From the NCBI GenBank assembly GCA_001603275.1, contig LUYM01000012.1:1-64000 (forward strand): a stretch of DNA of 64,000 bases, given 5' to 3'. Below, in pieces: positions 11,126-29,569 of the stretch (position 1 is its first letter; every line of letters begins with the position of its first letter). The position numbers and the translations under genes are program-made. The notes below the pieces were generated by a model. The model had not been told where the DNA came from, did not search any database, and worked only from the letters and a program-made list of their open reading frames with translations. Source of the DNA: Actinomycetales bacterium Actino_02. GTDB lineage: Bacteria; Actinomycetota; Actinomycetes; Propionibacteriales; Propionibacteriaceae.

Positions 11126-11208
11126 GCGCGAGTGGCGGAATGGCAGACGCGCACGGTTCAGGTCCGTGTGTCCGAAAGGACGTGGAGGTTCAACTCCTCT
11201 CTCGCGCA
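11126..11208 (+). tRNA. tRNA-Leu (CAG)
   Basis: A type II tRNA with a long variable arm. The acceptor stem is GCGCGAG (11126-11132) pairing with CTCGCGC (11201-11207), with discriminator A at 11208. The anticodon loop TTCAGGT is closed by CACGG/CCGTG, giving anticodon CAG (reads CUG). The T arm is GGAGGTTCAACTCCT. The 3' CCA is not encoded in full. Shadow ORFs across this gene produce the familiar GVEPPRPFGHTDLNRARLP antisense peptide and are not genes. Confidence 0.97.
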
Positions 11209-12111: not shown

Positions 12112-12285
12112 CCGAACGCTCACCCTCGCCGTCGGCATACTCGGCGGCGATCTCTGAGCATGGGCGACGCTCGTCCGTTCTGGCCGCATGACCCGCCCTG
12201 CGGCGAAGTCGTGCGGCCAGGTCCCGCCGGACTGCTCTGTGGCGGATGGGGTAGGACTCGGTCACTGAGGAGTCAGGATGCGCGG

Positions 12286-12318
12286 AACGTCACAGAAACG
12301 CTCATCATGTGTTACGTT
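12286..12318. promoter_or_regulatory. candidate operator upstream of first aldolase
   Basis: An imperfect inverted repeat, AACGTCACA (12286-12294) with TGTG-TT-ACGTT (12308-12318), lies 37-69 bp upstream of the aldolase start. It is a plausible site for the DeoR regulator encoded two genes downstream. No clear -35/-10 pair was found. Confidence 0.35.
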
Positions 12319-12354
12319 GGTCTCACAAAGTCCCATTTGGTGAGGAGCCAGCAC

Positions 12355-13155: not shown

Positions 13156-13160
13156 CGGCA

Positions 13161-14165: not shown

Positions 14166-14185
14166 CGAGTCGGAGGGTGACTCGT
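14165..14185 (+). terminator. hairpin after dehydrogenase gene
   Basis: ACGAGTC (14165-14171), loop GGAGGGT, then GACTCGT (14179-14185), starting at the last base of the stop codon. It may separate the two-gene operon from the DeoR gene 220 bp on. There is no strong T-tract. Confidence 0.45.
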
Positions 14186-14404
14186 TCGTCCAGGGGCGGC
14201 GTGGGGGCTTCGGCCGCAGTGGCCGCATCCGGTCCAGGTGCCGATCGCGGGCCGCAACTCCCGGCGGATCACCCAGCGGCACCGGTCCAGGATGGCCCTG
14301 TCGGGCCGGGTGAGGAGGGGTCGCGTCCCCTCCCTGCCCGGCCCACCCGCTCTCCTTCGAAGGCCGATCTCGGATCCCATACCCTTCGGGCTAGAGTTGC
14401 CCGC

Positions 14405-15244
14405 ATGGGGTTCGGGCCTACCGCCAGCAACGAGGTCTGGGAGTTGGGCGGCGGCAGCATCGCCCAGCGGGCGCGTTTCCGCCGGATCATGGACGTCCTC
14501 TTCGAGAAGGGGTTTGCCAGCGTCGACGAGCTTGTCGGCGAGCTTTCGGTCAGCCGAATGACGGTCCACCGCGACCTTGACGAGTTGGATTCGCGCGGAG
14601 CGCTCCGGAAGGTTCGGGGCGGCGCCACGGTGGGCAGGACCGAACAGTTCGAGAGTTCTTGGGAGTACCGCACCCGAATCGCGGTGGACAAGAAGATCGC
14701 GATCGCCAGGAGGGCCCTGGACTACGTCGAGCCGGGGAGTTCGCTCTGCCTTGACGCGTCCTCCACGGTGCACGAACTGGCCAAGCTCGTCGCGGCCAAG
14801 ACGCCACTGACCGTCGTCACCGCGTCACTCCCGGCACTGGGTGAACTGGCGCTGGTCCCGGGTGTCGAGCTCCACTCGGTCGCCGGCGAATACGATCCGC
14901 ACTTCCGTACCTTCATGGGTGCGCGCGCTGAACAGTCGATTCGTCAGATGCGGGTCGACACCGCCTTCATCTCGATGGCGGCCATCACCGGCACGACGGT
15001 CTGCCACTCCCAGGCGAAGGCGATCCAGCTCAACCGGGCCTTCTTCGACATCGCCACCACCAGAATCCTGCTGGTCGACTCGACGAAGTTCGGTCACTCG
15101 GCCATCCACGTGTTCTCCGACATCTCCGAGTGGGATCGCGTCATCACTGATAGCGAGGCGCCCGCCGAGCACGTGGAGGCCCTCCGTTCGGCGGGCGTCC
15201 AGGTCGACCTGGTGGATGCCGCTGCGGACTCCGGCACTTCCTGA
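14405..15244 (+). CDS. DeoR-family transcriptional regulator
   Basis: A sugar-catabolism repressor of 279 residues from ATG 14405. The N-terminal winged HTH is ASVDELVGELSVSRMTVHRDLDEL (described in parts: ASVDELVGELSV then SRMTVHRDLDEL). The DeoR_C sensor domain, a phosphosugar isomerase-like fold, follows with signatures such as LCLDASSTVHELA, LLVDSTKFG and VITDS. It probably responds to a phosphorylated intermediate of the neighbouring aldolase pathway. A longer frame runs upstream but lacks conserved sequence. It converges on the GntR gene with a 48-bp gap. Confidence 0.9.
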   Translation: MGFGPTASNEVWELGGGSIAQRARFRRIMDVLFEKGFASVDELVGELSVSRMTVHRDLDELDSRGALRKVRGGATVGRTEQFESSWEYRTRIAVDKKIAIARRALDYVEPGSSLCLDASSTVHELAKLVAAKTPLTVVTASLPALGELALVPGVELHSVAGEYDPHFRTFMGARAEQSIRQMRVDTAFISMAAITGTTVCHSQAKAIQLNRAFFDIATTRILLVDSTKFGHSAIHVFSDISEWDRVITDSEAPAEHVEALRSAGVQVDLVDAAADSGTS

Positions 15245-15292: not shown

Positions 15293-16045
15293 TCAGCGAA
15301 TGCCGACGTAGAAGCGGGATTCTCCGCTGCGGTGGACGCCGCGGTAGTACTCGAACGGCGTGCCGTCATCGCCCCACGCGATCGACTCGATGCGGAGCGC
15401 GGGCTCGCCGCTGGCCAGGCCGAGCAGCTCGGTTTCCTCATCGGTGGGGATCACCGCGTCCAGCCAGCGGTCGGCACCCTTCGGAGTGATGCCGTAGTGG
15501 CGGCGCAGATGCTCGTACAGCGAGCGGTTCTCGAGGTTGGCCTTCGCGAGCCCGGGGAAGAGCGACTTCGGCAGCACGGTGTGGACGAGCAGCCACGGCG
15601 TGCCGTCCACCAGGCGCAGGCGGCGCACGCGGATGACCGGATCGCCCTCATCGATGCGCAGCGCGGCTGCCTCGTCCGAATCGGCGAAGCCTTCGCCGTT
15701 CGATAGGACGCGCGTGGTCACGGTCTTGCCGGTGGTGCGCAGATCCTCGGAGGAGCCGAGGGTCGTACCGATGAAGCGAAGAGCCGGACGTGCCGGCGAG
15801 ACGAACGAGCCCTTGGCCCGGATCTTGTAGATGTGGCCGCTGCGGACCAGCTCGGCCAGAGCTTCGCGCACCACGGTGCGGGAGACGCCGTAGCGGTCGA
15901 TCAGCTCGGCCTCCGAGGGCAGTGCCTGGTCGGGCGCGAGATCGCCACGCTCGATCGCTGCGCGCAGCAGGACGGACAGCTGCTGCCACAGCGGCAGTGC
16001 CGACTCTCGATCCAGCTGATCGCCTTGCAGGGTCGACGCGTTCAT
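15293..16045 (-). CDS. GntR-family regulator, HutC subfamily
   Basis: A 250-residue regulator. The N-terminal winged HTH reads LPSEAELIDRYGVSRTVVRE, with the wing at GSFVSPA. The C-terminal UTRA ligand-binding domain includes VIRVRRLRLVDGTPW and ends SRFYVGIR. It is divergent from the ABC transporter operon, and the shared ~220-bp region holds a promoter with a perfect TCATTAC-N6-GTAATGA operator-like repeat, so it most likely represses that operon and itself. HutC-type regulators commonly sense sugar phosphates or small acids. Confidence 0.93.
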   Translation of the reverse strand: MNASTLQGDQLDRESALPLWQQLSVLLRAAIERGDLAPDQALPSEAELIDRYGVSRTVVREALAELVRSGHIYKIRAKGSFVSPARPALRFIGTTLGSSEDLRTTGKTVTTRVLSNGEGFADSDEAAALRIDEGDPVIRVRRLRLVDGTPWLLVHTVLPKSLFPGLAKANLENRSLYEHLRRHYGITPKGADRWLDAVIPTDEETELLGLASGEPALRIESIAWGDDGTPFEYYRGVHRSGESRFYVGIR

Positions 16046-16099: not shown

Positions 16100-16150
16100 T
16101 TGACACCGCGGAGGCTGGCTCCTAGTCTAATCATTACCAACTTGTAATGA
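16100..16150 (+). promoter_or_regulatory. promoter plus GntR operator candidate for the ABC/polyol operon
   Basis: TTGACA (16100-16105), a 17-bp spacer and TAGTCT (16123-16128) make a good sigma-A promoter. TCATTAC (16131-16137), a 6-bp spacer and GTAATGA (16144-16150) form a perfect inverted repeat covering the expected start of transcription. The AT-rich palindrome stands out in this GC-rich DNA and sits between the divergent GntR gene and the operon. Confidence 0.65.
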
Positions 16151-16263
16151 CTAGTTGGTCGGGACAAGACGCAGTCCTGCTCCGACAATCCGCACTTCCT
16201 TCGCAGGGCACCGGCGCCCCCGGTTGACCTTGCGGTGAAGCGAATCCCTTGGAGGGAAAAACA

Positions 16264-17361
16264 ATGTCGTTTGGATCTCTGCAACGCATCGGCGTCGCCG
16301 TACTGGCGGCCGCCGCGCTCGTCCTTTCCGGTTGTGCTTCCGGCAGCGGATCGTCCGCCAGCCCCGCCGCCGGCTCCTCGGGCAGCTCAGCCGCCGGCAA
16401 ACCCATCTCGATCGCACTGTCGAACGGGTTCGTCAACGGCTGGCGGCTCACGCTCATCAACAAGTTCGAGACCGAGGCCAAGAAGCTCAAGGAGCAGGGT
16501 GTCGTCTCCGACTACACCACCGTCAACGCCCCTGGCGAGAACAGCGCGACGGAACAGGCCTCGCAAATCCGCAGCCTGATTCTGAAGAAGCCGGACGTGC
16601 TCATGGTGATTCCCGCATCGTCGACCGCCCTCGTGCCGGCCGTCGAAGAGGCCTGCGCAGCCGGCATCACCGTCCTCGTCCTCGACGCCGACATGGACGC
16701 CAAGTGCGCGACCGTCGTGCGTAACGCCTACAGCCAGTGGGGCGAGGACTCCCTCAAACCGGCTCTGGATGCCATCGGTGGCAAGGGCAACATCATCATC
16801 AACCGCGGTGTGATCGGCTCGCAGCCCGAGCAGGAGTTCAACGATCGTCAGCACGAGATCCTGAAGGACTACCCGGACGTGAAGGTCGTGGCCGAGGTGA
16901 ACGGCTACTGCGACTCGTCGACGGCGCAGAAGGAGATCGTCGCGGTGCTCGGCTCGCTTCCTCAGATCGCGGCAGTGCCCGGCTGCATCGGCGGCATGGG
17001 GGTCGTGCAGGCCTTCGAGTCGGCGGGACGCCCGCTGCCGGTGGTCGTCTTCGACACCGACGGCAAGTCGCTCTCCTTCTGGAAGAAGAGCGGCATCAAG
17101 AACGGCTCGTTCGCGGCGCTGACCGATCCGGGCCAGAGCGTGGCGGCGATCTACGTCGCGCTCGCGAAGCTCGCGGGCAAGGACGTTCCTCACGAGATCG
17201 TGCTTCCGCTGGTGTCGGTCAACCAGGAGAACCTCGACTACTGGGTCGGCAAGCTCGGGGCAGATGAGTACGCCTCGCAGCCGTGGACTGAGGCGAGTGT
17301 TCAGGCCGCGCTCGACGCGATTGCCGCCGGCAAGCCTGCGCCCGCACCTGCCCTCAACTGA
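16264..17361 (+). CDS. sugar ABC transporter substrate-binding lipoprotein
   Basis: A ribose/galactose-type periplasmic-binding-protein-like lipoprotein (Peripla_BP_4 fold), 365 residues from ATG 16264, which follows a GGAGGG site. The signal peptide ends in lipobox LSGC. A Ser/Gly/Ala-rich linker leads to the binding domain beginning KPISIALSNGFVNGWRL. It is not an LsrB-type AI-2 receptor by eye despite the LsrF homologue downstream. It is the first gene of a nine-gene run (SBP, ATPase, two permeases, aldolase, oxidoreductase, kinase, aldolase/SDR, phosphatase), with a likely promoter at 16100. Confidence 0.9.
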   Translation: MSFGSLQRIGVAVLAAAALVLSGCASGSGSSASPAAGSSGSSAAGKPISIALSNGFVNGWRLTLINKFETEAKKLKEQGVVSDYTTVNAPGENSATEQASQIRSLILKKPDVLMVIPASSTALVPAVEEACAAGITVLVLDADMDAKCATVVRNAYSQWGEDSLKPALDAIGGKGNIIINRGVIGSQPEQEFNDRQHEILKDYPDVKVVAEVNGYCDSSTAQKEIVAVLGSLPQIAAVPGCIGGMGVVQAFESAGRPLPVVVFDTDGKSLSFWKKSGIKNGSFAALTDPGQSVAAIYVALAKLAGKDVPHEIVLPLVSVNQENLDYWVGKLGADEYASQPWTEASVQAALDAIAAGKPAPAPALN

Positions 17362-17391
17362 CCGCACGACCGACGAGCCCGAAGGAATCAC

Positions 17392-18900
17392 ATGTCCTCC
17401 ATCGCGATGGACCGCGGCGTGAACGATGCCACGTCACGCCGGGGACCGGACGTCATCGTCGCCAGCGGGGTGACGAAGCGTTACGGCAGCACTACGGCAC
17501 TGAACGGCGTAGACCTCGCCGTAAGCCGGGGGGAGATCCTCGGGCTCGTCGGCCATAACGGAGCCGGCAAGAGCACCCTCATGCGGATGTTCGCCGGACG
17601 AGAGTTGCCCGACGAGGGACGCGTGTCCTGGCACGGAGGCGACGGGCGCTGGGACGCGCGCGCCGCCGCCGCGGCCGGGGTGCGCATGGTCTACCAGGAG
17701 CTTGCGCTCTGCGCCGACCTCACGGTCGCCGAGAACGGAGCGCTCTCCGACCCCAGGCCGTCACGTGCAGGCTGGCGGGGAACAGCCGAGCGTCGGATCG
17801 GCGAGGTGCTCGATCGGGTGTTCCCGGGTCACGGCATCAGCGTCATCCAGCGCGTCGGCGAGCTGCCGATGGCTGAGCGGCAGATGGTGGAGATCGCCAG
17901 AGTGCTGTGCACCGATCGCCTCGGTCTCCTCATCCTCGACGAGCCGACCGAATCGCTCGGGGTCGATGCGACGCGTCAGCTGTACGTGCATCTGAAGACG
18001 CTCGTGGCCGAGGGCGTGAGCGTCCTGCTCATTTCGCACCGGATCCAGGAGGTGCTCCAGCACTGCGATCGGATCGCCGTCATGAAGGATGGCGCGGTCG
18101 TGGACATCGTCGGCGCGGACCGCGCCACGGAGTCGGCGCTGCTGGAGGCGATGGGTGGTGAGGTGCGAGCCGACGTCGGCACGCTGGCGCGCGCCAAGGT
18201 GCTTGCCGATGCTGCGCCGCAGACCGGTGCGACGGCGGAGATCATCGCCGAACTCCGAACCGGCGACGGTCCGGCGCTACGGGTCGGAGCGGGGGAGATC
18301 GTGGGTCTCGCCGGGCTCGCCGGCCAGGGGCAGGAGGACGTCCTGGCCCGGCTGTGGCAGGGCGGTCGCGGTGCTCGGGTGCCGAAGCGCCGGGCCTATG
18401 TGCCGGGTGACCGCCAGACGTCCGGGATTCTCCCGCTGTGGTGCGTGGCTGAGAACCTGACCATCTCGGCGCTGGGTGGCGTCTCGAAGCTGGGATTCCT
18501 CGACCTGCGAGCCAAGCGTGCGCTTGCTGCGCGATGGATCCAGGCACTGCGGGTGCGCGGCGAAGCCTCGACCCCGATCACGGCGCTTTCCGGCGGCAAC
18601 CAGCAGAAGGTGCTCATCGCTCGGGCCTTCGCCAGCGACGCCCGGCTGGTCCTACTCGACGACCCGTTCCGCGGCGTCGATGTCGCAACCAAGAGCGAGC
18701 TTTACGCATTGATGAAGGCCGAAGCTGCCGCCGGCCGCGCCATCGTCTGGTACTCGACAGAGAACCGCGAGATGGCGCACTGCGAGCGCGTCTACGTCTT
18801 CCGCTCCGGCCGGATCGTCTCGGAGCTGAGCGGAGCGACGAACACCGAGGAGCGCATCATCGCCGACTCCTTCGACCACGCCACGGGAGGATCACGATGA
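17392..18900 (+). CDS. sugar ABC transporter ATP-binding protein, RbsA/MglA type
   Basis: A 502-residue protein with two fused ATPase domains. The N-terminal domain has Walker A GHNGAGKST and Walker B LLILDEPTES, with a degenerate signature (LPMAERQ). The C-terminal domain lacks a Walker A lysine (GLAGLAGQGQED), as is usual in this family, but keeps signature LSGGNQQKV and LLDDPFRGVD. It energises uptake of the sugar or polyol bound by the lipoprotein encoded 30 bp upstream. Its stop overlaps the first permease start (ATGA). Confidence 0.95.
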   Translation: MSSIAMDRGVNDATSRRGPDVIVASGVTKRYGSTTALNGVDLAVSRGEILGLVGHNGAGKSTLMRMFAGRELPDEGRVSWHGGDGRWDARAAAAAGVRMVYQELALCADLTVAENGALSDPRPSRAGWRGTAERRIGEVLDRVFPGHGISVIQRVGELPMAERQMVEIARVLCTDRLGLLILDEPTESLGVDATRQLYVHLKTLVAEGVSVLLISHRIQEVLQHCDRIAVMKDGAVVDIVGADRATESALLEAMGGEVRADVGTLARAKVLADAAPQTGATAEIIAELRTGDGPALRVGAGEIVGLAGLAGQGQEDVLARLWQGGRGARVPKRRAYVPGDRQTSGILPLWCVAENLTISALGGVSKLGFLDLRAKRALAARWIQALRVRGEASTPITALSGGNQQKVLIARAFASDARLVLLDDPFRGVDVATKSELYALMKAEAAAGRAIVWYSTENREMAHCERVYVFRSGRIVSELSGATNTEERIIADSFDHATGGSR

Positions 18901-19886
18901 CCGCGCCAGCCGTCGCGTTGCGCACCTACACGGGGCGGACGAGCCTCGCCGAGCGGGCGAAGACCGCTGCTCGCCAGGGATCACCGGCGCTGCTGTCGCT
19001 GGCCGCGCTCCTCGCTATCTTCGCTGTTGCCGTCGCCAATCAGCCCGGCATCCTGAGCATCCCGGGGCTCACCCTCATGCTCATGTCAGCGGTGCCACTC
19101 GTCTTCGCCACCCAGGCCCAGATGCTCATCATGGCGGTGGGCGACATCGACCTCGGCATCGGCTACCTGGTCGGCCTAGTCACGGTCATCGCCGCGACGT
19201 TGCTCGATGCGCAGCCGCTGCTCGGCATCGGCCTGCTGGTCGGCATTGTCGGCGTCTACGCCCTCGTCGGTCTGCTCGTAGAGCGGCGCGGGGTGCCGTC
19301 GATCATCGTCACTCTCGGCATGTCGTTCGTCTGGCTCGGACTCGGCCTGCAGCTGCTGCCGACACCGGGAGGTGCCGCACCGGAGTGGCTCGCCGCGATC
19401 GGTAGCTGGCGCCCGACCTGGATCCCCGGCCCGCTGGTATTCGTCGTGCTGGCAACCGTCGTGGGCTGGTACCTCGCGCGGCACAGCCGGATCGGCATGC
19501 GAATGCGGGCACTCGGCTCCAGCGCACCGACCCTCAACAAGGCCGGGCGATCGCTGACGGCCACCCGGGTCATCGCTTTCGCGCTCGCCGCCGTCCTGGT
19601 GATTCTCGCCGGCCTGCTGTTGGCCGCACAGACCCGATCAGGGGACGTGAACTCGGCGACCAACTTCACGCTGACCACCATCGCCGCGGTCATCCTCGGC
19701 GGAGGCAACTTCTCCGGCGGCCGCGCGCTGCCGGTCGGCGCCACCTTCGGCGCCGTCACGCTCGGCTTCATCACCGTGCTGCTCAGTCTGGTGAACCTGT
19801 CGTCGAGCCTCCAGTCCGCAGCACAGGGCCTGATCGTGCTCGCCGTGCTCGCCGGACGCGTCATCACCGAGAGGTTCACCCGATGA
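18897..19886 (+). CDS. sugar ABC transporter permease (BPD_transp_2), first subunit
   Basis: A 329-residue polytopic membrane protein, with about nine hydrophobic segments, of the RbsC/LsrC family. The conserved cytoplasmic motif region reads AVILGGGNFSGGRALPVGAT near the C-terminus. The start ATG 18897 is 4-bp overlapped with the ATPase gene stop; the longer frame that begins upstream is out-of-frame read-through of the ATPase gene. It forms the membrane channel with the next gene product. Confidence 0.92.
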   Translation: MTAPAVALRTYTGRTSLAERAKTAARQGSPALLSLAALLAIFAVAVANQPGILSIPGLTLMLMSAVPLVFATQAQMLIMAVGDIDLGIGYLVGLVTVIAATLLDAQPLLGIGLLVGIVGVYALVGLLVERRGVPSIIVTLGMSFVWLGLGLQLLPTPGGAAPEWLAAIGSWRPTWIPGPLVFVVLATVVGWYLARHSRIGMRMRALGSSAPTLNKAGRSLTATRVIAFALAAVLVILAGLLLAAQTRSGDVNSATNFTLTTIAAVILGGGNFSGGRALPVGATFGAVTLGFITVLLSLVNLSSSLQSAAQGLIVLAVLAGRVITERFTR

Positions 19887-20929
19887 TCACCGCTCCTCAT
19901 CCCGTCCCCGAAGCCACCGTCGTTTCGGTGGAGCGTTCCCGCCCGCGCCTGGTCTGGCCGGCGTGGGGATGGTCACTGGTCGGCGTCCTGCTGATCTGGG
20001 GATTCATCATTGCAGTACGCCCAGGCGCTCCGTTCGACCCGCTCGCGCAGGCACTTTCGCTCGCACCTTTCTTGGTACTGGTCGCGCTGGGACAGATGCT
20101 CGTGATCACCCTGGGGCCCGGCAACATCGACGTGTCGGTCGGAACCATCATCTCGATGAGTTCCTACGTCTCGGTCGCGGTCAGTGTTGTGGCCGGCCCC
20201 GTCGCCGGTCTGGTTGCGGCGGTCGGGGTGGGGTTGGTCGCCGGGGCGGTGAGCGTCGTGGCCATCCTCCTGCTGCGCGTGCCGCCCATCATCGCCACCC
20301 TGGCGACCAGCCTCATCGTCAGCTCCGCCACCCTGCTTCTGTCCGATGCGAACCGCGCCGCGGCCGATGCCGGCCTGCGGGTCCTGGTCAACGCGAAGCT
20401 ACTCGGCGTCCCGGTGAGCGCACTCTTCGTGGCCGTCGTCACCGTGCTGATCGCGCTGATGTTCACCCGCACCCGGTTCGGTCTCTCGATCGTCGCGGTC
20501 GGCCAGAGCCTGCGCGCCGCTGAGCGGGCCGGCCTGCGAGTGAAGACCCTCACCGCGATCGCTTACCTGGTGTGCGCTGCATTCGCCGGTCTCGCCGGCG
20601 GCCTGCTTGCGGCGTTCATCTCGCCGAGCACCGTGCTCGGGACCTCCTACATGCTCGACTCCGTCGCCGTGGTCGTCATCGGCGGGACTCTCGTCTCCGG
20701 CGGACGCCCGGTGCCGGTCGGCACCTGGACCGGCGCGATGTTCTTCGTGCTGCTGTCGGGCCTGCTCAACCTCGTCGGCTGGCCGGTCGGTGCGCAGAAC
20801 ATCCTCAAGGGCCTGCTCGTCGTCACCGTCGTCCTCATCTCGACCGCGTCGACCGGCACCGGCCGATCGACCCTCGCACGACTCCGCGCCTCACTCAACC
20901 CACACAAGAAGGAGACCACCAATGGCTGA
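19883..20929 (+). CDS. sugar ABC transporter permease (BPD_transp_2), second subunit
   Basis: A 348-residue paralogue of the preceding permease, RbsC/LsrD-like. The N-terminus carries one hydrophobic segment ([16 protein letters not shown]), followed by the multi-helix core; the signature loop is [20 protein letters not shown]. Its ATG overlaps the previous stop (ATGA), and its own stop lies 8 bp inside the LsrF-like gene. Two permease genes in tandem are typical of LsrCD and related polyol/pentose importers. Confidence 0.92.
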
Positions 20930-21794
20930 CCTCGACGACCTCCGCGACGGCACCGACTTCGGAGGAGCCGACCCTGTGGCCACCGGCTTCCACCTCAAGG
21001 GCCTCGCCGGCCAGGACTGGGGCATGCGCGCTCGACTGTCGCGGATCTTCGACCCCCGCGACGGCAAGACGGTGATGCTGGCGTTCGACCATGGCTACTT
21101 CCAAGGCCCGACCTCCGGGCTTGAGCGCCTGGACCGCTCGATCCTGCCGCTCGTCCCGCAGGCCGACGCGCTGATGTGCACCCGGGGCGCCCTGCGCACC
21201 ACCATGCCGCCCACTTCGGGCAAGGGCGTCGTACTGCGCGCCTCCGGCGGCCCGAGCGTGCTCAGCGAGCTCTCGAACGAGGAACTCGCCATCTCCATCG
21301 ACGACGCCGTGCGCCTCGACGCCGCTGCGCTTGCCGTGCAGGTGTTCATCGGCGGAGAGAACGAGACGAAGTCGGTGAAGAACCTCACCACGCTGGTCGA
21401 TCAGGGCCAGGCGATGGGGATCCCGGTGCTCGCCGTGACGGCCGTCGGTCGGGACATGGTGCGCGACGCCCGCTACTTCCGCCTGGCCACCCGGATCACG
21501 GCCGAGCTGGGCGCCACCTTCGTCAAGACGTACTACATCGAGGACGGCTTCGAGACGGTGACCAGCGCCTGCCCGGTGCCGATCGTCATCGCCGGTGGCA
21601 AGAAGGTCGAGGAGCGCGAGGCGCTCCAGGTCGCCTACCGCGCCATCCAGGAGGGTGCAGCCGGGGTGGACATGGGCCGCAACGTGTTCCAGTCCGAGCA
21701 CCCCGCAGCGATGCTCGCGGCCGTGCGGGGCGTCGTGCACGACGGGCTCACCGCCGGCGAGGCCTATGCCCTCTTCGAGTCACATTCGCACTGA
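20922..21794 (+). CDS. LsrF-like class I aldolase/thiolase
   Basis: 290 residues from ATG 20922 (GAAGGAG upstream). The protein is strikingly close to Escherichia coli LsrF as I recall it: [58 protein letters not shown], and the Schiff-base lysine in [12 protein letters not shown]. It also has [14 protein letters not shown] and [14 protein letters not shown]. LsrF transfers an acetyl group from phospho-HPD to CoA in AI-2 breakdown. Here lsrG, lsrR and an LsrB receptor are absent and polyol-type enzymes follow, so it more likely cleaves a ketose phosphate. It overlaps the upstream permease gene by 8 bp. Confidence 0.88.
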
Positions 21795-21865
21795 CTCCGC
21801 AGCACCGGATCCCGCATCCGGCGCCTTTCACAGCTTCGACCATGAATCACATTGAAGGAACACCC

Positions 21866-23527
21866 ATGCCCGCTCTATCCAGCTACCACCCCGTAGTCGG
21901 GGCCGTCGACGTCGCAGTAGTCGGCGCCGGCATCAACGGACTCGCCATCGCGAGGGAGGCGGCACACCGGGGTCGCTCGGTCCTGCTGATCGATCAGGAC
22001 GACGTCGGCGCGCGCACCTCGGCCATCAGCACCCGTCTGATTCACGGTGGGCTGAAGTACCTGGAGCGGCTTGAGGTCCACCTGGTTCACGAGTCGATCC
22101 GCGAGCGGAACATCCTGCTGGAGCACGCGGGCCACCTCGTGCATCACTATCCGATGCTGATGCCGTTCGTGAAGACCAACAGCCGTCCGGGGTGGCTCCT
22201 CGCATGTGGGCTGATGACGTTCGAAGTGTTGTCACTGGGCAAGCCGCTGCCATGCTCACAGATTCTGTTCAGCAAGCAGGTGCGCCGTGAGTATCCGTCC
22301 GTGCTGGCTGGACGGCTGAAGTGGGGTGGAATCTTCCACGACGCGAACGTGCCGCTCACCGAGCGGCTGTGTGTGGAGCTCGCGATCGACGCCCAGGCGC
22401 ACGGCGCCACGATCCTGACCCACTCACGGGTCGAGTCTCTGGTGCGCACGGACGGACGGATCACCGGACTGCGCTATCGAGACCGGGTGACCGGCGAGCT
22501 TTCCAGCGTGGACGCCAAGATCGTGGTGAACGCCGCCGGGCCCTGGGTCGACGACATCCTCGACCTCGCCGGCTCGCATCCCCGGCAGATGGGCCCCACC
22601 AAGGGCAGCCATCTGGTCGTCGGGCCGTTCCCGGGGGCCCCGGACACCTGCATCTTCTTCGAGTCGCCGGACGACACCAGGCCGATGTTCATCCTGCCCT
22701 GGCAGGGCCGCTACATGATCGGCACCACCGACCTGCCGTACAACGGGTCACTGGACGAGATCGTGATCGACGACGACGAGATCGCCTACCTGCTGCGGGC
22801 CGTCAACGAGTTCGTCCCGGCAGCCAAGCTCACTCCCGACGACGTGCTGTGGTCCTACTCGGGCGTCCGTCCGCTGCCCTACGTGGCCGACCTTGACGAT
22901 CCGTCCAAGGTGAGCCGGGATCACGAGATCATCGTGCACGACGGTGATCGTCGCGGCCTGGTGACGGTCATCGGCGGCAAGCTCACGACGCATCGCGCGC
23001 TCGGAGAGCTCGTCGTCAAGCGTGTCGAGAAGGCACTCGGGAACCGGCCGGGTCCCTCACCCACGCGCACGGCGCAGTTCCCCGGCGCTCCCGAGGGTGA
23101 CTGGCTGGACTACAGGACCCGGTTCATCGGGGCGAGCTCCCTGGAGACAGCCGTGGCCACGAGGCTGGTCGACACCTACGGAACTCGTGCCGCAGCAGTC
23201 GAGGCCCTCGTGACCGCGGATCCGACCCTGGCCGAGGTCGTCGACCCCGAGACCGGTGCCATCGCGGCGGAGGCGATCCATGCAGTGTTCGACGAGGGGG
23301 CCTTCACTCTCGAAGACGTCGTGCTGCGCCGGATGACCGTGGGGTTGAACTCCGATGTCGGCCTCACCGCGGCGCCGGTGGTGGCGGACGTGCTCGTGTC
23401 GCACGGCGCCTGGACGCGTGAGTACGCCGACGCCGAGCTTGCTCGATACCGTGACGCTATGCGGCGGTTCATGCCGCGTGCGCTCAGGAGCAATGGCGCT
23501 GCCCGAGCTACAAAGGAGTCAGCGTGA
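21866..23527 (+). CDS. GlpD-family FAD-dependent polyol-phosphate dehydrogenase
   Basis: A flavoprotein of 553 residues related to glycerol-3-phosphate dehydrogenase GlpD and to erythritol-phosphate dehydrogenase EryB. The FAD-binding motif VVGAGINGLAIAREAAHRG lies at the N-terminus, the GlpD signature is RLIHGGLKYLERLE, and a second substrate/FAD region reads VTVIGGKLTTHRALGE. ATG 21866 is preceded at good spacing by GAAGGA; an ATG at 21842 is less well placed. The stop overlaps the kinase GTG (GTGA). In this operon it probably oxidises a kinase-made polyol phosphate to a ketose phosphate, passing electrons to the membrane quinone pool. Confidence 0.88.
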   Translation: MPALSSYHPVVGAVDVAVVGAGINGLAIAREAAHRGRSVLLIDQDDVGARTSAISTRLIHGGLKYLERLEVHLVHESIRERNILLEHAGHLVHHYPMLMPFVKTNSRPGWLLACGLMTFEVLSLGKPLPCSQILFSKQVRREYPSVLAGRLKWGGIFHDANVPLTERLCVELAIDAQAHGATILTHSRVESLVRTDGRITGLRYRDRVTGELSSVDAKIVVNAAGPWVDDILDLAGSHPRQMGPTKGSHLVVGPFPGAPDTCIFFESPDDTRPMFILPWQGRYMIGTTDLPYNGSLDEIVIDDDEIAYLLRAVNEFVPAAKLTPDDVLWSYSGVRPLPYVADLDDPSKVSRDHEIIVHDGDRRGLVTVIGGKLTTHRALGELVVKRVEKALGNRPGPSPTRTAQFPGAPEGDWLDYRTRFIGASSLETAVATRLVDTYGTRAAAVEALVTADPTLAEVVDPETGAIAAEAIHAVFDEGAFTLEDVVLRRMTVGLNSDVGLTAAPVVADVLVSHGAWTREYADAELARYRDAMRRFMPRALRSNGAARATKESA

Positions 23528-25023
23528 CGACGAAGCACTGCGTGATTGGGATCGATGTCGGCTCGACCGCGGCGAAGGCGGCCGCTTTCGACCAGTCCGG
23601 CGCCGAGATCCGCACGTTCTCCGCTCCCAATCCGCGGGTGGCCGTGTCGAGGGATCGCCAGGAGATCGACATGATCGCGCTCTGGGAGGTGGTCGCTACC
23701 GTGCTCGGCGGGCTGACCGCCTGGCTGCGTGAAGAGGGTTGGGACGTCCGCGGCGTCGGCGTGACCGGACATGGGAACGGCCTCTATCTCGTCGACGCAG
23801 ACCTCCATCCGGTGCGGGCAGCGTTTGCCTCAACCGACAGCCGCGCGGAGTCGATTGTCGCTGCGCTCGAGGCGGCGGAGGTCGAGCAGGTCCGCCGGGT
23901 GACCGGGTCGGTGCCGTGGGCTGCGCAACCGGGCGTGCTGCTGCGCTGGCTCCTCGACCACGAGCCGGAGTCGCTCCAGCGCGCGCGGTGGGCACTGACC
24001 TGCAAAGACTGGATCGTCACGTGCCTGACCGGAGTGGCGAGCGCCGACTACTCCGATGCCTCGGCCTGCGGCCTGGTGACCCTCGCTACCCGCGAGTATG
24101 AGCCGGCGGTGTTCGACCTGCTCGGCCTGCCGCGGGAGCTCATGCGACTGCAGCCGCCGCTGAACGAGTCGAACGCGGTGGTCGCTGCGGTCACCCTCGA
24201 GGCTGCACAGCGCAGTGGGCTGCCCGTCGGCACCCCGGTCGTGGCCGGCTGCATGGACTGCGTCGCCAGCCCGCTGGGAGCCGGAGCGGTGGCTCGCGGC
24301 GATGTCACGATCATCGTCGGAACATGGGCGATCAACTCTGTGGTGGTGCCGGTCGACGAGGAACCGCCGCACGTCACCTTGAATGCGCTGCTCCCCGATC
24401 CTGCGTTGATGCTCGCCCAGGAGGTGGCGCCGACGTCGGCTGCCAGCATCGAGTGGTACGCCTCGCTGATGTCGAGCGTTGCGCCGGAGCGGGTGACGCC
24501 GCGGCAGCTCCTCGAGGTCGCGGCCGATGCGCCCGCGGGCTCCGATGGGCTGCTGTTCCTGCCGTTCGTGCACGGTGCTCCCGAGCATCTCGGGGCGTCC
24601 GCGACCTTGGTGGGCGCGAAGGGTAGCCACGGGTACCGCGAGATTGCCCGAGCAGTGGCCGAGGGCATCACCCAGTACCACCGCGTGCAGGTCGAGAAGG
24701 TGCTGCGCAGCGGGGCGGACGTGTCGGACGCACCGTGGACGCTGGCCGGCGGCGGGGCGAAGAACCCGTTGTGGGCGCAGATGTTCGCCGACATCCTCGG
24801 GCATCCGGTGCGCCGCCAACTCGGCACCGAATTGGGGACCCGGGGGGTGGCCTCACTCGCCGCTCACGGCGCGGGATGGGACACCTCTGCCTGGCGGGAC
24901 GATCCCGATCTGACCCTCGTCGTTGAGCCGGGCGCCGACCGAGACACCTATCGGGCCCAAAGCGATCGCTTCGACCGGGTGCTCGCGGCGATGGCCGAGG
25001 TATGGACGGCGGCGGGACGATGA
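23524..25023 (+). CDS. FGGY-family carbohydrate kinase (LyxK/EryA-like)
   Basis: A 499-residue sugar/polyol kinase with the ASKHA fold. Phosphate loop 1 is GIDVGSTAAKAAAFD, the substrate region is GVTGHGNGLYLVD, and the C-terminal adenosine loop is TLAGGGAKNPLWAQM. The central stretch LAQEVAPTSAASIEWYASL resembles L-xylulose kinase (LyxK) and erythritol kinase (EryA) more than glycerol kinase. It starts GTG, overlapped with the GlpD-like gene, and its stop overlaps the next start (ATGA). It likely phosphorylates the imported polyol or ketose; the substrate is not predictable by eye. Confidence 0.9.
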   Translation: MTTKHCVIGIDVGSTAAKAAAFDQSGAEIRTFSAPNPRVAVSRDRQEIDMIALWEVVATVLGGLTAWLREEGWDVRGVGVTGHGNGLYLVDADLHPVRAAFASTDSRAESIVAALEAAEVEQVRRVTGSVPWAAQPGVLLRWLLDHEPESLQRARWALTCKDWIVTCLTGVASADYSDASACGLVTLATREYEPAVFDLLGLPRELMRLQPPLNESNAVVAAVTLEAAQRSGLPVGTPVVAGCMDCVASPLGAGAVARGDVTIIVGTWAINSVVVPVDEEPPHVTLNALLPDPALMLAQEVAPTSAASIEWYASLMSSVAPERVTPRQLLEVAADAPAGSDGLLFLPFVHGAPEHLGASATLVGAKGSHGYREIARAVAEGITQYHRVQVEKVLRSGADVSDAPWTLAGGGAKNPLWAQMFADILGHPVRRQLGTELGTRGVASLAAHGAGWDTSAWRDDPDLTLVVEPGADRDTYRAQSDRFDRVLAAMAEVWTAAGR

Positions 25024-26963
25024 CGCCACACATCAGTCGATACGGCCAGGCCGCCGGGTTCGCGCTCGACGAACTCACCCGGGTCTCGCACCGCCTCGGC
25101 GCGGACCCGTCCCTTGTGCTGCACGGTGGCGGGAACACCTCGATCAAGGTGACCGGCGTCGATGTGGCCGGCGAACCCGTCGAACTGATCTTCGTCAAGG
25201 GTTCTGGCTGGAACCTGGCGACCATCGAGCCGGCAGGGTTCGCTCCGCTGCGGTTGGAACGCCTGCTTCCGCTCCTGGAGCGCGAGCAGTTGGGCGACCA
25301 GACGATGGTCAACGAGCTGCGTCAGGCATCGCTGGACGCGACCGCACCGACCGCGTCGATCGAGGCTCTGCTCCACGCGCAACTCCCGGCGAAGGTGGCT
25401 TTGCACTCCCACGCCGACGCGATCGTCGCCCTCACTGATCAGCCCGACGCCGACGACCGGGTGCGGGAGGTGCTCGGCGAGGGTGTGGTCGTGCTGCCCT
25501 ATGTCATGCCCGGCTTCGAGCTTGCTCGGCTGGTGGCGGCCACCGACCTGGACGGCGCGGACGCCATCGTGTTGTCCAATCACGGGCTGTTCACCTTCGC
25601 CGACGATCCCGATGCGGCGTTGGCTCGTCATCTGGCGCTCGTCGAGCGTGCGGCGGCTGCGATCGGGCAGCCCGCCTGGGGTGACCCGGGCGAATCCGTC
25701 GAGCGGGCCGGTGATCCGCGCGCGCTGGCCGAGCTGCGCAAGGCGGTCTCAGTGGCGGCTGGACGACCCCTGCACCTGGGCCAGTCGTCCTCGTCGCGCG
25801 CTCTGCAGTTCGCCCGACGCGGCGAGCTGGACGCCCTGACCTCGCGCGGCACGGCGACTCCCGAGCACGCGATCTACACCAAGCGCAGTCCGCTGGTGGG
25901 ACGCGATGTCGCCGGATATGCGGCCGACTACCGGCGCTACGTCGATGCCCATCGGCACCGCGCGCCCGGTGCGATCACCGACATCGATCCGGCCCCACGG
26001 GTGATCCTCGATCCTGAGTTCGGATTGCTCACCGCCGGGCCCACGGTGTCGGCTCTCGGCGTCGCAGCCGACATTGCCCTGCACACGATGGACATCATCG
26101 ATGCCGCCGACCGCGTGGCGGGGTATCGGTCGCTGGACGAAGCCTCGACCTTCGACATCGAATACAGCCCGCTGGAGCAGGCCAAGTTGCACAAGGCCGC
26201 GCTACCGCAGCTCTCCGGTGAGGTGGCCGTGGTGACCGGCGCTGCCTCGGGCATCGGACGCGCGGTCGCGGCGGCACTCCTGGACAGCGGCGCGGCCGTT
26301 GTTGGGGTCGATCTTTCGGCGGACGTTGCGGCGACCTTTTCGGCGCCGGGCTGGCGAGGAGTCTCCGGCGACGCCGGCGATGCCGAGCTGTTGGGTCGGG
26401 CGTTCGAGCTTGCCGTCCGAGAGTTCGGCGGTGTCGACATCCTCGTCGTGGCTGCGGGGATTTTCCCGCCGAGCGCGCCGATCGCCGAACTCGACGACGC
26501 GGCCTGGGAGCGGGCCATGCGGATCAACGCGACCGCTGTGATGAAGGCGTTCCGGGCTGCCCATCCCTACCTTGCCCTCTCTCCGCGCGGGGGACGGGTG
26601 GTACTGGTCTCGACGAAGAACGTCGCGGCACCCGGGCCGGGCGCCGCCGCGTATTCGGCGAGCAAGACTGCGGCCGCACAGCTGGCGCGGGTCGCCGCAA
26701 TCGAGTGGGCCGGCGAGGGCATCCGGGTGAACCAAGTGGAGCCCGATGCCGTGTTCGACACGGCGATCTGGACCCCTGAGCTGCTTGCGAAGCGGGCGGC
26801 GCAGTACGGACTGACCGTCGAGGAGTACCGCTCGCGCAATCTGCTCCGTACGGAGGTCACCAGTGCAGCGGTGGCCGAGGCTGTGGTCGCCTTCTGCACA
26901 GGGCTCACGGCGACGACGGGTGCGCACCTGAGCGTCGATGGGGGCAATGATCGCGTCATCTGA
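25020..26963 (+). CDS. bifunctional class II aldolase / short-chain dehydrogenase (YuxG/RhaD-SDR type)
   Basis: A 647-residue fusion. Residues ~1-210 are a class II (zinc) aldolase/epimerase domain: LHGGGNTSIKV, FVKGSGWNL, metal ligands HSHAD and a distal LSNHGLF. A linker or insertion follows to ~395. The C-terminal SDR has VVTGAASGIGRAVAAAL, catalytic Tyr/Lys in YSASKTA, and a C-terminal SVDGGND. Members of this architecture cleave rhamnulose-1-phosphate and oxidise lactaldehyde. No rhamnose isomerase or kinase set is present, so I would not call it RhaD. It may process the ketose-1-phosphate and the aldehyde formed. Confidence 0.88.
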   Translation: MTPHISRYGQAAGFALDELTRVSHRLGADPSLVLHGGGNTSIKVTGVDVAGEPVELIFVKGSGWNLATIEPAGFAPLRLERLLPLLEREQLGDQTMVNELRQASLDATAPTASIEALLHAQLPAKVALHSHADAIVALTDQPDADDRVREVLGEGVVVLPYVMPGFELARLVAATDLDGADAIVLSNHGLFTFADDPDAALARHLALVERAAAAIGQPAWGDPGESVERAGDPRALAELRKAVSVAAGRPLHLGQSSSSRALQFARRGELDALTSRGTATPEHAIYTKRSPLVGRDVAGYAADYRRYVDAHRHRAPGAITDIDPAPRVILDPEFGLLTAGPTVSALGVAADIALHTMDIIDAADRVAGYRSLDEASTFDIEYSPLEQAKLHKAALPQLSGEVAVVTGAASGIGRAVAAALLDSGAAVVGVDLSADVAATFSAPGWRGVSGDAGDAELLGRAFELAVREFGGVDILVVAAGIFPPSAPIAELDDAAWERAMRINATAVMKAFRAAHPYLALSPRGGRVVLVSTKNVAAPGPGAAAYSASKTAAAQLARVAAIEWAGEGIRVNQVEPDAVFDTAIWTPELLAKRAAQYGLTVEEYRSRNLLRTEVTSAAVAEAVVAFCTGLTATTGAHLSVDGGNDRVI

Positions 26964-27663
26964 TCACCCGGACCTGCCTGCTCCATCGCGCGAATCGTAT
27001 CGAGGGGAGGTGTCGGACGCGGCCACGTTGCTGTTGGTTCGGCACGGCCGGACGGCGTGGAACCGAAGCGGTCGCTGGCACGGCCAGGCCGATGTCCCAC
27101 TGGACGAGCTGGGCGTCCGACAGGCGCAGGGACTCGCTCCGCAGATCGCGCGGCTATGCCCGGACCGGGTGGTCACCTCGCCGCTCATCCGCGCGCGCAG
27201 GACGGCGCAGACCCTGGCCATGGCATTGGGCCACGATGTCGAGCTGGGGTCCGACGACCGGCTGAAGGAGGTGGACGTCGGCACCTGGGAAGGCCTCGTC
27301 GACGCCGAGGTGGCTGCGCTGGATCCCGAGTTCCCGGGTTCGCCTGCTGCCGACAGACGATTCTCCGAGACTGGGGAGCGCCCCTCTGAGTGTGCCGCCC
27401 GGGTGGCGGCGGCACTGCGCGACCTGGCGAGATCCCACCCCGGGCAGACTGTCCTCGTGGTCAGTCACGCGTATGCGATCAAGGTGGGGGTGGGGGCGCT
27501 CCTGGGCTGGGATCTGCCCGCGACCAATGCTCTGCCTGCGCCGTACAACTGTGCCTACGCAGAGCTCCGCGGCCGCGCGGACGGACCGTGGTCGCTGGTC
27601 TCGTGGAACGTCGAGGACCCGCACGTGCCACTGCAGCGTCTCGGTGAGGTCCACGTGGTGTAG
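26938..27663 (+). CDS. histidine phosphatase superfamily (phosphoglycerate mutase-like) protein
   Basis: A cytoplasmic phosphatase of about 240 residues. The catalytic RHG motif is in LLLVRHGRTAWNRSGRWHG, a second arginine in TSPLIRARRTAQT, and a distal histidine in VVSHAYAIKVG. It resembles CobC/GpmB-type broad phosphatases. The start is uncertain: ATG 26938 and ATG 26947 both lie inside the upstream gene, and GTG 27010 is possible. It is the last gene of the operon and may dephosphorylate a pathway intermediate or relieve sugar-phosphate stress. A strong terminator follows 7 bp after the stop. Confidence 0.82.
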   Translation: MGAMIASSDHPDLPAPSRESYRGEVSDAATLLLVRHGRTAWNRSGRWHGQADVPLDELGVRQAQGLAPQIARLCPDRVVTSPLIRARRTAQTLAMALGHDVELGSDDRLKEVDVGTWEGLVDAEVAALDPEFPGSPAADRRFSETGERPSECAARVAAALRDLARSHPGQTVLVVSHAYAIKVGVGALLGWDLPATNALPAPYNCAYAELRGRADGPWSLVSWNVEDPHVPLQRLGEVHVV

Positions 27664-27698: not shown

Positions 27699-27774
27699 AT
27701 GCCGTCCCGGTCGGACATCGTCGGCGCCGCTGAATCCGGCCGGGGCCGACCTCAGCGGCCGATCCTCGGCACGA

Positions 27775-29379
27775 TCAGGCGGGGATCGCCAGCGGCGCGC
27801 TGACCATCGAGACGGTGGCGTAGCCGGACAGCTTGCCGGTGACCCGGACGCTGATCTGAGTGCCGGCGTCGGCCGCAGTCAGCTTGTAGCTCGACTTTGT
27901 GGCCTTACGGATCACCGCACCGTCGCGCAGCCATTGGTAGCTGAGCTTGGTCTTCTTGGTCCAGGTTCCCGGGGTGGCCTTCAGGGTGGAGCCGACGACG
28001 GCTGAGCCGCTGACCGTCGGGGTTCCGGCGGTGGCGACCTTGGCGGTGGCTGAGCTCGTCCGGCTGATCACCGGGAAGTTCAGGTACTGCCCGCTCACCT
28101 TGACGGTGAGTCGCTTGCCCTTCTGGGCGGTGGTGAGCGTGAAGGTCTGCGCGGTCGCGTCCACGATCGCCTTGCCGTCGGCGTACCACTGGTAGCTGGG
28201 AACCGAGGCCGACTCCCAGGCTCCGGCGTCGGCGGTCACCTCGGACCCGACTGCCACGGTTCCACGAATCTGCGGCACCGAGCTGCGCAGCAGCGGCCAG
28301 CTCGTCGGGGACGTTGCGGTCACCCAGTAGTTGCCCACGTGGCTGGTCACTCGGACCTGGAGCTGGGCGTGCAGGTCGGCCGATCCCGGCGTGTAGGTCT
28401 TCTTCGTGGCCTTGGGGATCGTCACCCCGTCGCGCAGCCACTGGTAGCTGAAGGAAGCCTTCTTCCACTTCCCCGGCCCGACATCGGCCTTCTGCTCCAG
28501 CCCGATGCTCGGCGATCCCAGCACCCAGGGCGAGAGCAGGCCGGCGTTCTTGGACCCGCTGAAGGAGAGCAGGCTGACGTAGTGGGCCTCGGCCTTCAGC
28601 CGGGCTCCCTTGGGCATCTCACTGTCGACCGCGTAGCTGCCGGGACGCAGTTCCGGGAAGCTGAAGCGTCCGGCGCTGTCGGTGGTGAAGGACTCCAACT
28701 CGCCCCAGTAACCCGCGTCCATCCAAATGAACAGGGTGATCCAGCGTCCGGCAAGCGGCTTGCCCTTGGAGCTGGTGAGCGTGCCGCTGACCGTGTCCAG
28801 GTGATCCAGTTCGGCGTCGGCCTCGACCCCCGGGCCGTCAGCGGTGACGGTGATCACCGTGGCGCCCCACGAGCCGGAGTTGTGGTTCTTCCACCATTGA
28901 TCGATGAAGCCTTCGCCGGTGAACTCCAGCAGGTAGTCGCCGGCCGGCACAACGCCCAGGGAGTAGTAGCCGTAGGCGTCAGTGACGGCCGTCGCGACGG
29001 GGTCGCCACCGGAGCTGCCGCTATGCCAGAGCCTCACGGTGATGCCCTCGACTCCATCGCCGGAGTAGGTCTCCCAGGCGTGGCCGTAGACGGACGGCTC
29101 GGTTGCCGGGTCGTCCGCGGTCGCGCTGACCCGGCTGCTCTGGACGGCTCGGCTGGCGTCGAGGCTCCTGTGCTCGCTGGCGGCCCCCACCGGCCGGGTC
29201 CGCACGCGGTGATCCACCGGCGGAGCAGCCAGCTGCGGGCTGGCGCTGCTCGCCGCGGGCCGGGTTGGCCGGGGATCAGTGGTGTCCTCCGCCTGAGCGG
29301 GGAGCGTCGAGCCGACCGCGAATGAGAAGGCGAGAAGGGTGGATGCGAAGACGCAAGCGAGTCTGGTCGACCGTGACAT
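27775..29379 (-). CDS. secreted protein with carboxypeptidase-regulatory and Ig-like repeats
   Basis: A 534-residue exported protein. The Sec signal peptide MSRSTRLACVFASTLLAFSF ends near AQA-ED. Two carboxypeptidase-regulatory-like/CnaB-type beta-sandwich domains follow (about residues 90-170 and 195-290; DAYGYYSLGVVPAGDYLLEF, DSAGRFSFPELRPGSY). Three Ig-like repeats come next, each with a SYQWLRDG-type core and SYKLTAADAG-type strand. There is no LPXTG sorting signal and no catalytic domain, so it is probably a secreted or wall-associated binding protein. It is monocistronic, flanked by a terminator on the 3' side. Confidence 0.85.
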   Translation of the reverse strand: MSRSTRLACVFASTLLAFSFAVGSTLPAQAEDTTDPRPTRPAASSASPQLAAPPVDHRVRTRPVGAASEHRSLDASRAVQSSRVSATADDPATEPSVYGHAWETYSGDGVEGITVRLWHSGSSGGDPVATAVTDAYGYYSLGVVPAGDYLLEFTGEGFIDQWWKNHNSGSWGATVITVTADGPGVEADAELDHLDTVSGTLTSSKGKPLAGRWITLFIWMDAGYWGELESFTTDSAGRFSFPELRPGSYAVDSEMPKGARLKAEAHYVSLLSFSGSKNAGLLSPWVLGSPSIGLEQKADVGPGKWKKASFSYQWLRDGVTIPKATKKTYTPGSADLHAQLQVRVTSHVGNYWVTATSPTSWPLLRSSVPQIRGTVAVGSEVTADAGAWESASVPSYQWYADGKAIVDATAQTFTLTTAQKGKRLTVKVSGQYLNFPVISRTSSATAKVATAGTPTVSGSAVVGSTLKATPGTWTKKTKLSYQWLRDGAVIRKATKSSYKLTAADAGTQISVRVTGKLSGYATVSMVSAPLAIPA

Positions 29380-29569
29380 TGGGGGCTCTCTGTGGGACTG
29401 CTGTGGAATCTAGCAGCCCTAGTCAGCTCCCTGATAAACGCTTCTGGAACTGGCCGCGAAATGGCCGCGGCCGTCCGCCCCGGCGAGCCGTGGTGACCGA
29501 GGTCGCCCCGGTGGAGACGTCCGGCTGCGACCCGGCGTCCATACTGGAGGTGACCAGAGGGGGACGGCC

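Follow-up and report, generated by a model that had tools for sequence, protein, structure and literature searches.

Introduction

To our knowledge, the thiolase LsrF has been described only as the last step in the destruction of the autoinducer-2 (AI-2) quorum signal. FGGY-family kinases and GlpD-like flavoproteins are paired in the erythritol pathway, as EryA and EryB, together with EryC, EryH and EryI, which we take to be isomerases of the RpiB and triose-phosphate-isomerase types. The subject of this report is an operon that unites LsrF with such a kinase and flavoprotein, located in a 64,000-nucleotide stretch of DNA from the Actinomycetales bacterium Actino_02 (contig LUYM01000012.1, positions 1 to 64,000), hereafter the window. 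We propose, at a probability of roughly one in two, that the operon would serve the uptake and breakdown of a five-carbon (C5) 1-deoxy sugar, namely a 1-deoxyketopentose such as 1-deoxy-D-xylulose and, where an aldolase/short-chain dehydrogenase (SDR) fusion is also encoded, a 1-deoxypentitol.

Several described reactions are relevant to this proposal. According to excerpts of PMC7828210, LsrF acting on the AI-2 intermediate converts part of the skeleton to acetyl-coenzyme A (acetyl-CoA), while the rest ends in dihydroxyacetone phosphate (DHAP). The conversion of 5-deoxyribose to DHAP and acetaldehyde by MtnK, MtnA and aldolase homologues is reported in excerpts of PMC6079011 and PMC10986504. 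RhaEW, the family to which the fusion belongs, cleaves a deoxyketose-1-phosphate to DHAP and an oxidised aldehyde (PMC3870299, in excerpt), and 1-deoxy-D-xylulose is phosphorylated by E. coli XylB and formed by purified pyruvate dehydrogenase (PMC3424233, in excerpt).

The operon of the window

Nine tightly packed open genes occupy 16264-27663 of the forward strand, with a divergent GntR/UTRA gene in front:

15293-16045, reverse strand: GntR/UTRA-family regulator, divergent (PF00392 and PF07702)
16127-16154, no strand: palindrome, possible GntR operator (intergenic; one mismatch, outer 8-base arms)
16264-17361, forward strand: CUT2-type sugar-binding lipoprotein, the substrate-binding protein (SBP) (PF13407; nearest solved chain 4pe6)
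17392-18900, forward strand: ATP-binding cassette (ABC) ATPase with two nucleotide-binding domains (PF00005, two stretches)
18897-19886, forward strand: ABC permease 1 (PF02653)
19883-20929, forward strand: ABC permease 2 (PF02653)
20922-21794, forward strand: LsrF, 3-hydroxy-5-phosphonooxypentane-2,4-dione thiolase (NF006081, 462 bits against 297)
21866-23527 (alternative start 21842), forward strand: GlpD-like FAD-dependent sugar-phosphate dehydrogenase (PF01266, PF16901)
23524-25023, forward strand: FGGY carbohydrate kinase, LyxK side (PF00370, PF02782, tree)
25020-26963, forward strand: class II aldolase/SDR fusion, RhaEW-like (PF00596, PF00106)
26938-27663 (alternative start 26947), forward strand: histidine-phosphatase superfamily protein (PF00300)

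An earlier note on this DNA had given nine genes in this order with tight junctions, and all nine are indeed open: a gap of 30 bp separates the binding-protein and ATPase genes and is followed by overlaps of 4, 4 and 8 bp, and a gap of 71 bp between lsrF and the GlpD-like gene is followed by overlaps of 4, 4 and 26 bp. The GntR operator that it also posited corresponds to a palindrome beside the divergent GntR gene, for which an operator role is only possible. The half-site of this palindrome, GTCATTAC/GTAATGAC, is found in 16 of 28 intergenic regions of relatives and the window, as a raw count with no shuffled control.

LsrF reaches 462.2 bits against the curated model NF006081 (PRK08227), above the cut-off of 297, and matches E. 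coli LsrF structures at E 7e-118. A control run of the model listed one E. coli genome as a match and placed 0/14 control genomes over the cut-off; E. coli K-12 LsrF was then compared directly. LsrF is retained in every assembly at 58-72% identity to the E. coli enzyme, and K203 is a lysine in 43/43 sequences, window included (alanine in the 4p2v chain). The GlpD-like protein scores 344 bits against NF008899 (cut-off 360), the kinase 195.7 bits against its best model, XylB (TIGR01312; cut-off 380.25), and the fusion 786.6 bits against NF006196 (cut-off 831) and 395.5 bits against the rhamnulose model RhaEW (TIGR02632; cut-off 567.75). Because they fall below the cut-offs of their best models, these three proteins are family members only, and their specificity is not fixed by scores. 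The parts list of the earlier note (an LsrF-like enzyme, a GlpD-like flavoprotein, a LyxK-like kinase and the fusion) is sound to that depth, with LsrF over its cut-off, the kinase on the LyxK side and not the XylB side of a tree that carries long-branch warnings, and the remainder at family level.

Catalytic residues are conserved. The residues Y55, H233, R317, R332 and K354 of E. coli GlpD, presumably catalytic and phosphate-binding, are retained in 43/43 GlpD-like sequences, that of the window included, and the kinase keeps the aspartate aligned with XylB D233. In the fusion, E115, H129, H131 and H188, which we take to form the metal site, occur in 21/21 sequences, and Y545 and K549, presumably the SDR tyrosine and lysine, in the 19 of 21 that extend to the SDR part.

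Recurrence of the operon

The earlier note had treated the operon as singular, which proved mistaken. A pattern-based scan with a binding-protein alignment, covering 84,980 named species by one genome each, gave 45 loci, to which five further genome loci and three plasmid loci were added, making 53. Genes of the relatives were called by a simple GC-position script that missed or shadowed some of them (for example the fusion in L096), so that presence was counted by tblastn. LsrF, the GlpD-like protein and the FGGY kinase are all present in 42 of the 53 loci, or in 39 after removal of duplicate contigs (L097 = L122, L098 = L123, L099 = L124); the other 11 comprise one 3.6 kb fragment (L127) and ten alphaproteobacterial loci that share the transporter only. 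The collinear core consists of the GntR regulator, the CUT2 ABC importer, LsrF, the GlpD-like protein and the LyxK-side FGGY kinase, and is seen in Microbacterium, Leifsonia, Mycetocola, Nocardioides, Microbispora, Streptosporangium, Micromonospora, Streptomyces and others. Far from being an isolated case, the operon is a conserved system that recurs.

The fusion, or its aldolase part, was found in 20 of the 53 loci, all among the 42 with the core (17 actinobacterial, two Shinella and one Sagittula). Type A operons, core plus fusion as in the window, occur in Mycetocola, Leifsonia, Microterricola, Microbacterium, Herbiconiux, Leucobacter, Frigoribacterium, one Nocardioides metagenome-assembled genome and genome G679. 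The 22 type B loci, including those of Streptosporangium, Microtetraspora, Nonomuraea, Microbispora, Micromonospora and Streptomyces, run GntR-SBP-ABC-permeases-LsrF-GlpD-FGGY with no adjoining fusion, and in 16 of them no additional gene family was present in more than five. The regulator is collinear in both types, at 53-74% identity by tblastn. Four type B genomes were available whole: two lack a fusion homologue at E <= 1e-30, and in the other two the sole homologue is a 35% paralogue at another place. Since 22 of 42 core operons do without it, the fusion is rejected as part of an essential core and is an accessory, not the fixed part of the pathway that the earlier note had supposed. The same figures, with two of four such genomes devoid of a homologue, tell against its suggestion that two aldolases perform two C-C cleavages of one branched substrate. 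As to the histidine phosphatase, no match exceeded the reporting limits in the relatives' loci, where nearly all fusion-bearing loci end about 0.4 kb past the fusion and L096 is the only good test.

A separate assembly is found on alphaproteobacterial plasmids. In Shinella, a DeoR gene is followed by lsrF, the fusion, the transporter, FGGY and GlpD (the second Shinella record, lacking annotation, was read through tblastn); in Sagittula, the order is a sugar-binding regulator, GlpD, FGGY, lsrF and a gene for a 397-residue protein. Compared with the window, GlpD and FGGY of these plasmids are 30-35% identical and LsrF 59-64%. The GlpD tree separates an actinobacterial group (96/99) from an alphaproteobacterial one (100/100, which also takes in GlpDs without a link to LsrF), while in the FGGY tree the alphaproteobacterial rows are unresolved on the LyxK side, with long-branch warnings. 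A single LsrF-linked clade of GlpD and FGGY is thus unsupported, the GlpDs lying in separate supported groups and the FGGY tree being open at that depth. These separate GlpD groups, together with the low GlpD and FGGY identity set against the higher LsrF identity, make it probable that these enzyme functions came together on more than one occasion. The gene arrangement is far from chance: it keeps its collinearity across dozens of genomes, and alphaproteobacteria carry a separate assembly of the enzymes.

A predicted route through LsrF

What is observed is the order and families of the genes, the conservation of catalytic residues and the recurrence; the substrate and all intermediates are what we infer. 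As type B operons share only LsrF, the GlpD-like protein and FGGY as enzymes, a kinase, a carbinol oxidase and a thiolase should form a complete or near-complete route. In the first step, the ABC importer would bring in the deoxy sugar, whose terminal CH2OH would then be phosphorylated by the FGGY kinase. The GlpD-like flavoprotein would oxidise the carbinol adjoining CH2OP, in the manner of GlpD on glycerol-3-phosphate, which on a 1-deoxyketose-5-phosphate would give 3-hydroxy-5-phosphonooxypentane-2,4-dione, exactly the substrate of LsrF and the one given in the name of its curated model. With CoA, LsrF would finally convert this compound to DHAP and acetyl-CoA. A 1-deoxyketopentose fits this kinase-oxidase-thiolase route without a missing step. 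Where a 1-deoxypentitol is the substrate, the third step would act on 1-deoxypentitol-5-phosphate and produce a 5-deoxyketose-1-phosphate, the kind of product that MtnK and MtnA yield and a natural kind of substrate for a RhaEW-like enzyme. This compound either could be cut by the aldolase/SDR protein to DHAP and acetaldehyde, with oxidation of the aldehyde, or could be oxidised at C4 by the SDR domain and passed to LsrF. A single C5 deoxy skeleton, met at two levels of oxidation, would account for two cleaving enzymes in type A and one in type B, and it is more likely that the two act in this manner. A deoxy substrate was among the options offered by the earlier note, and the fit of LsrF, GlpD-like protein and kinase argues for it.

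A narrower version of this proposal makes the operon a dedicated drain for 1-deoxy-D-xylulose: the kinase would yield 1-deoxy-D-xylulose 5-phosphate (DXP), a new flavoenzyme activity, DXP 4-dehydrogenase, would yield the AI-2 breakdown intermediate, and LsrF would release DHAP and acetyl-CoA. DXP is a common precursor of isoprenoids, thiamine and vitamin B6. We regard this version as rather doubtful.

Several observations weigh against a C5 1-deoxy sugar as substrate. The position of the kinase on the LyxK and not the XylB side makes the XylB precedent for 1-deoxyxylulose an indirect one. The binding protein matches solved chain 4pe6 at E 2.6e-101 (the LsrB chain 5gta only at E 2e-5), and 4pe6 is annotated only as a putative ABC transporter, so that no ligand follows from this comparison. 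The exchange of GlpD R54 for lysine, present in 42/43 sequences, had to be rejected as a signature of the pathway, as lysine also occurs in the GlpD of Rubrobacter and of one Rhizobium (two of four plasmid GlpDs without LsrF in the stretch shown) and arginine in that of Sagittula. The 397-residue protein of Sagittula matches the aldolase part only of the fusion models, so that the SDR is not always linked. None of the 40 LsrF loci described in the next section holds the binding protein or GlpD of the window, LsrF of the phylum being mostly in other settings. Lastly, by analogy, apionate-like genes beside related transporters hint that the ligand may be a branched C4-C5 compound.

Those transporters belong to the ten alphaproteobacterial loci mentioned above, with SBP identities of 44-47% in seven (L133-L139) and 32-35% in three. 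By clustering, the seven closer loci share an OiaK-like kinase and a 6PGDH-like gene (7/7), with an OiaX-like RuBisCO-like protein in 5/7 and an ApnL-like lactonase in 4/7, a gene set that is perhaps a pathway for an apionate analogue; an SGL-type lactonase is the only common gene of the three distant ones. Apionate-family scores were all below cut-offs where scanned (523/700, 427/700 and 443/750). Apiose itself was rejected as the ligand, chains 5ibq and 4ry0, which we take to be apiose-binding SBPs, matching the SBP of the window at about 45 bits only.

LsrF in other settings

LsrF was found at E <= 1e-60 in 17 of 198 genomes of the window's family, that of the window included. Forty LsrF loci were annotated, namely the 16 other family loci and 24 LsrF or LsrF-like loci from the phylum, several on short contigs. 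The earlier note had looked to LsrF neighbourhoods in actinobacteria, which answer in part: LsrF adjoins the same aldolase/SDR fusion in 11 of the 40 (L049-L057, L065, L066), and none has the window-type partners. L086 (LsrF-like at 35%, fusion-like at 28%) was left out of this count as too distant. Among the 11 loci, MtnA is present in seven (L050, L051, L054-L057, L066) and MtnK in six of these; most of them also encode a cupin, a DrdA-like class II aldolase and a CUT2 importer distinct from the window's. LsrF and the fusion are thus found among enzymes that produce a 5-deoxyketose-1-phosphate (5-deoxyribulose-1-phosphate in the case of MtnK and MtnA). These clusters would be a variant of the DHAP shunt, of which no description was found.

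Other combinations were noticed. At 4780-11837 of L053, a cluster encodes a DhaK-type kinase, an RpiB-like isomerase, the fusion, a cupin, LsrF, a triose-isomerase-like protein and a class II aldolase. On Bacteroidota plasmids (L166, L169), DhaK, DhaL and lsrF are consecutive, which suggests a DhaK-type kinase feeding LsrF. A cupin 29% identical to that of the MtnK/MtnA/LsrF clusters adjoins lsrK-like genes at L078 18133-18432 and L077 8324-8623, where it may replace LsrG.

In this recurrent carbon-source operon, which has no AI-2 genes, LsrF is the constant cleaving enzyme, which makes it unsafe to annotate lsrF as quorum quenching. Deoxypentoses arise from side chemistry of radical S-adenosylmethionine enzymes and of pyruvate dehydrogenase, and the operon points to an unassigned route for them and predicts two new activities: the phosphorylation of a deoxypentose or deoxypentitol by a kinase, and the oxidation of the resulting phosphate by a flavin dehydrogenase. 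If the drain for 1-deoxy-D-xylulose is real, LsrF would be a general deoxypentose thiolase, borrowed or shared by the AI-2 pathway, and several entry modules would feed it: kinase with GlpD, MtnK with MtnA, and a DhaK-type kinase.

Alternative explanations

An ordinary operon for a pentitol, tetritol or 6-deoxyhexitol (for example L-rhamnitol or L-fucitol) would also employ a kinase and a GlpD-like enzyme to make a ketose-1-phosphate, which the fusion would cleave to DHAP and a hydroxyaldehyde, with LsrF as a plain class I aldolase. Plasmids of Agrobacterium, Rubrobacter and Rhizobium do carry FGGY-GlpD pairs with no lsrF in the displayed stretch, and RhaEW acts on L-rhamnulose-1-phosphate (PMC3870299, in excerpt). 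Against this stand the type B operons, in which LsrF would be the only cleaver, the score of the fusion against the rhamnulose model and the retention of LsrF in every assembly at the identity to the E. coli enzyme given above; we consider such an operon unlikely.

The apionate-like neighbourhoods of L133-L139 raise the case of a branched C5 sugar alcohol such as 2-C-methyl-D-erythritol, which the kinase would convert to 2-C-methyl-D-erythritol 4-phosphate and a reversed DXR to DXP, GlpD-like protein and LsrF then acting as proposed for the 1-deoxyketopentose. This route still accommodates both enzymes, yet it relies on DXR running opposite to its normal direction, the operon has no DXR gene, SBP identities of 44-47% cannot fix a ligand, and the apionate-family scores lie below cut-offs. 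Its probability is low. Equally low is that of a salvage of 5-deoxyribose or methylthioribose (the DHAP shunt) with substitute enzymes: MtnK and MtnA are linked to LsrF and the fusion in relatives from the host's family, but the window operon holds no MtnK, MtnA or phosphorylase family, and a kinase with a flavin oxidase presumably cannot stand in for an aldose-1-kinase and an isomerase on the same aldose without prior reduction.

An AI-2 uptake and degradation (lsr) system, with the FGGY enzyme acting as LsrK and LsrF ending the route, is very improbable and is rejected because LsrB, LsrK and LsrG were sought in the operon and not found: LsrF exceeds its curated cut-off and the kinase matches the LsrK model, but at 131 of 528 bits, the LsrB model gives 27.7 of 384 bits, and the operon has no orthologue of LsrB, LsrK or LsrR; LsrG is missing from the operon and was recovered from 0/5 other operon-bearing genomes, while the LsrG-like protein of the window genome scores 67.6 (cut-off 135), is encoded on a separate contig next to a DyP-type peroxidase, and is matched by a counterpart in sister genome G431, in which LsrF is not found at E <= 1e-60; a genuine lsr operon of the phylum (L078) looks quite different; and we know of no place for a flavin oxidase in AI-2 breakdown. 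Erythritol is rejected as well, no RpiB or triose-phosphate-isomerase family being present among the nine genes.

The earlier note had left the polyol or ketose pathway without an assignment and had named an orthologous AI-2 or erythritol operon as grounds for abandoning that position. Such operons were looked for and do not apply, LsrB, LsrK, LsrG and the Ery isomerases being absent, and no description of the pathway was found in open-access PubMed Central titles and the starts of abstracts, among the matches listed. Within this open-access literature, LsrF together with 5-deoxyribose was not found, and the three papers naming both LsrF and FGGY deal with LsrK, to judge from their titles.

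Genomic setting

The operon lies in a variable region with the following left edge:

11126-11209, forward strand: tRNA-Leu(CAG), left edge of the variable region (ARAGORN)

Similarity to G431 ends at 11209, the last base of the tRNA, and the right flank of the window (27766-30385 and again from 38090) has its counterpart in that genome at a distance of about 18.5 kb. The intervening 11.2-27.8 kb of the window are missing from G431, which has other DNA there, part of it about 75% like 30.4-36.5 kb of the window. At E <= 1e-50, the binding protein is found among 394 genomes of the class in that of the window, in one other (77% SBP identity) and in four at about 50%. The operon was likely gained horizontally. 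No integrase was noticed among the open reading frames translated in the variable region, and the 3' end of the tRNA has no exact repeat of at least 12 bases up to position 30000. Just upstream in the same region, a second gene group (12160-15244) encodes a DhnA-family aldolase (best model 150 against 241 bits), a protein that by eye resembles D-2-hydroxyacid dehydrogenases, and a DeoR-type regulator; tblastn did not report this group beside the relatives' operons.

Comparison with known systems

With the E. coli lsr operon, the operon of the window has in common LsrF and the adjoining CUT2 ABC importer and FGGY kinase; it differs in having no LsrB, LsrK, LsrR or LsrG and in adding the GlpD-like oxidase and the aldolase/SDR protein. 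The erythritol pathway likewise brings an FGGY kinase (EryA) and a GlpD-like flavoprotein (EryB) together, whereas the operon described here lacks isomerases of the EryC/EryH/EryI type and possesses LsrF. The fusion resembles RhaEW (YuxG) in domain order, family, metal-site residues and SDR tyrosine and lysine, but remains under the rhamnulose cut-off, is accompanied by other partner genes and occurs in an operon without rhamnose genes. As in the DHAP shunt and drd systems (MtnK or DrdK, MtnA or DrdI, DrdA or Ald2), a five-carbon deoxy skeleton would end as DHAP and a C2 unit; in the operon described here, a kinase and a flavin oxidase take the place of a kinase and an isomerase, and thiolysis by LsrF would replace or join aldol cleavage.

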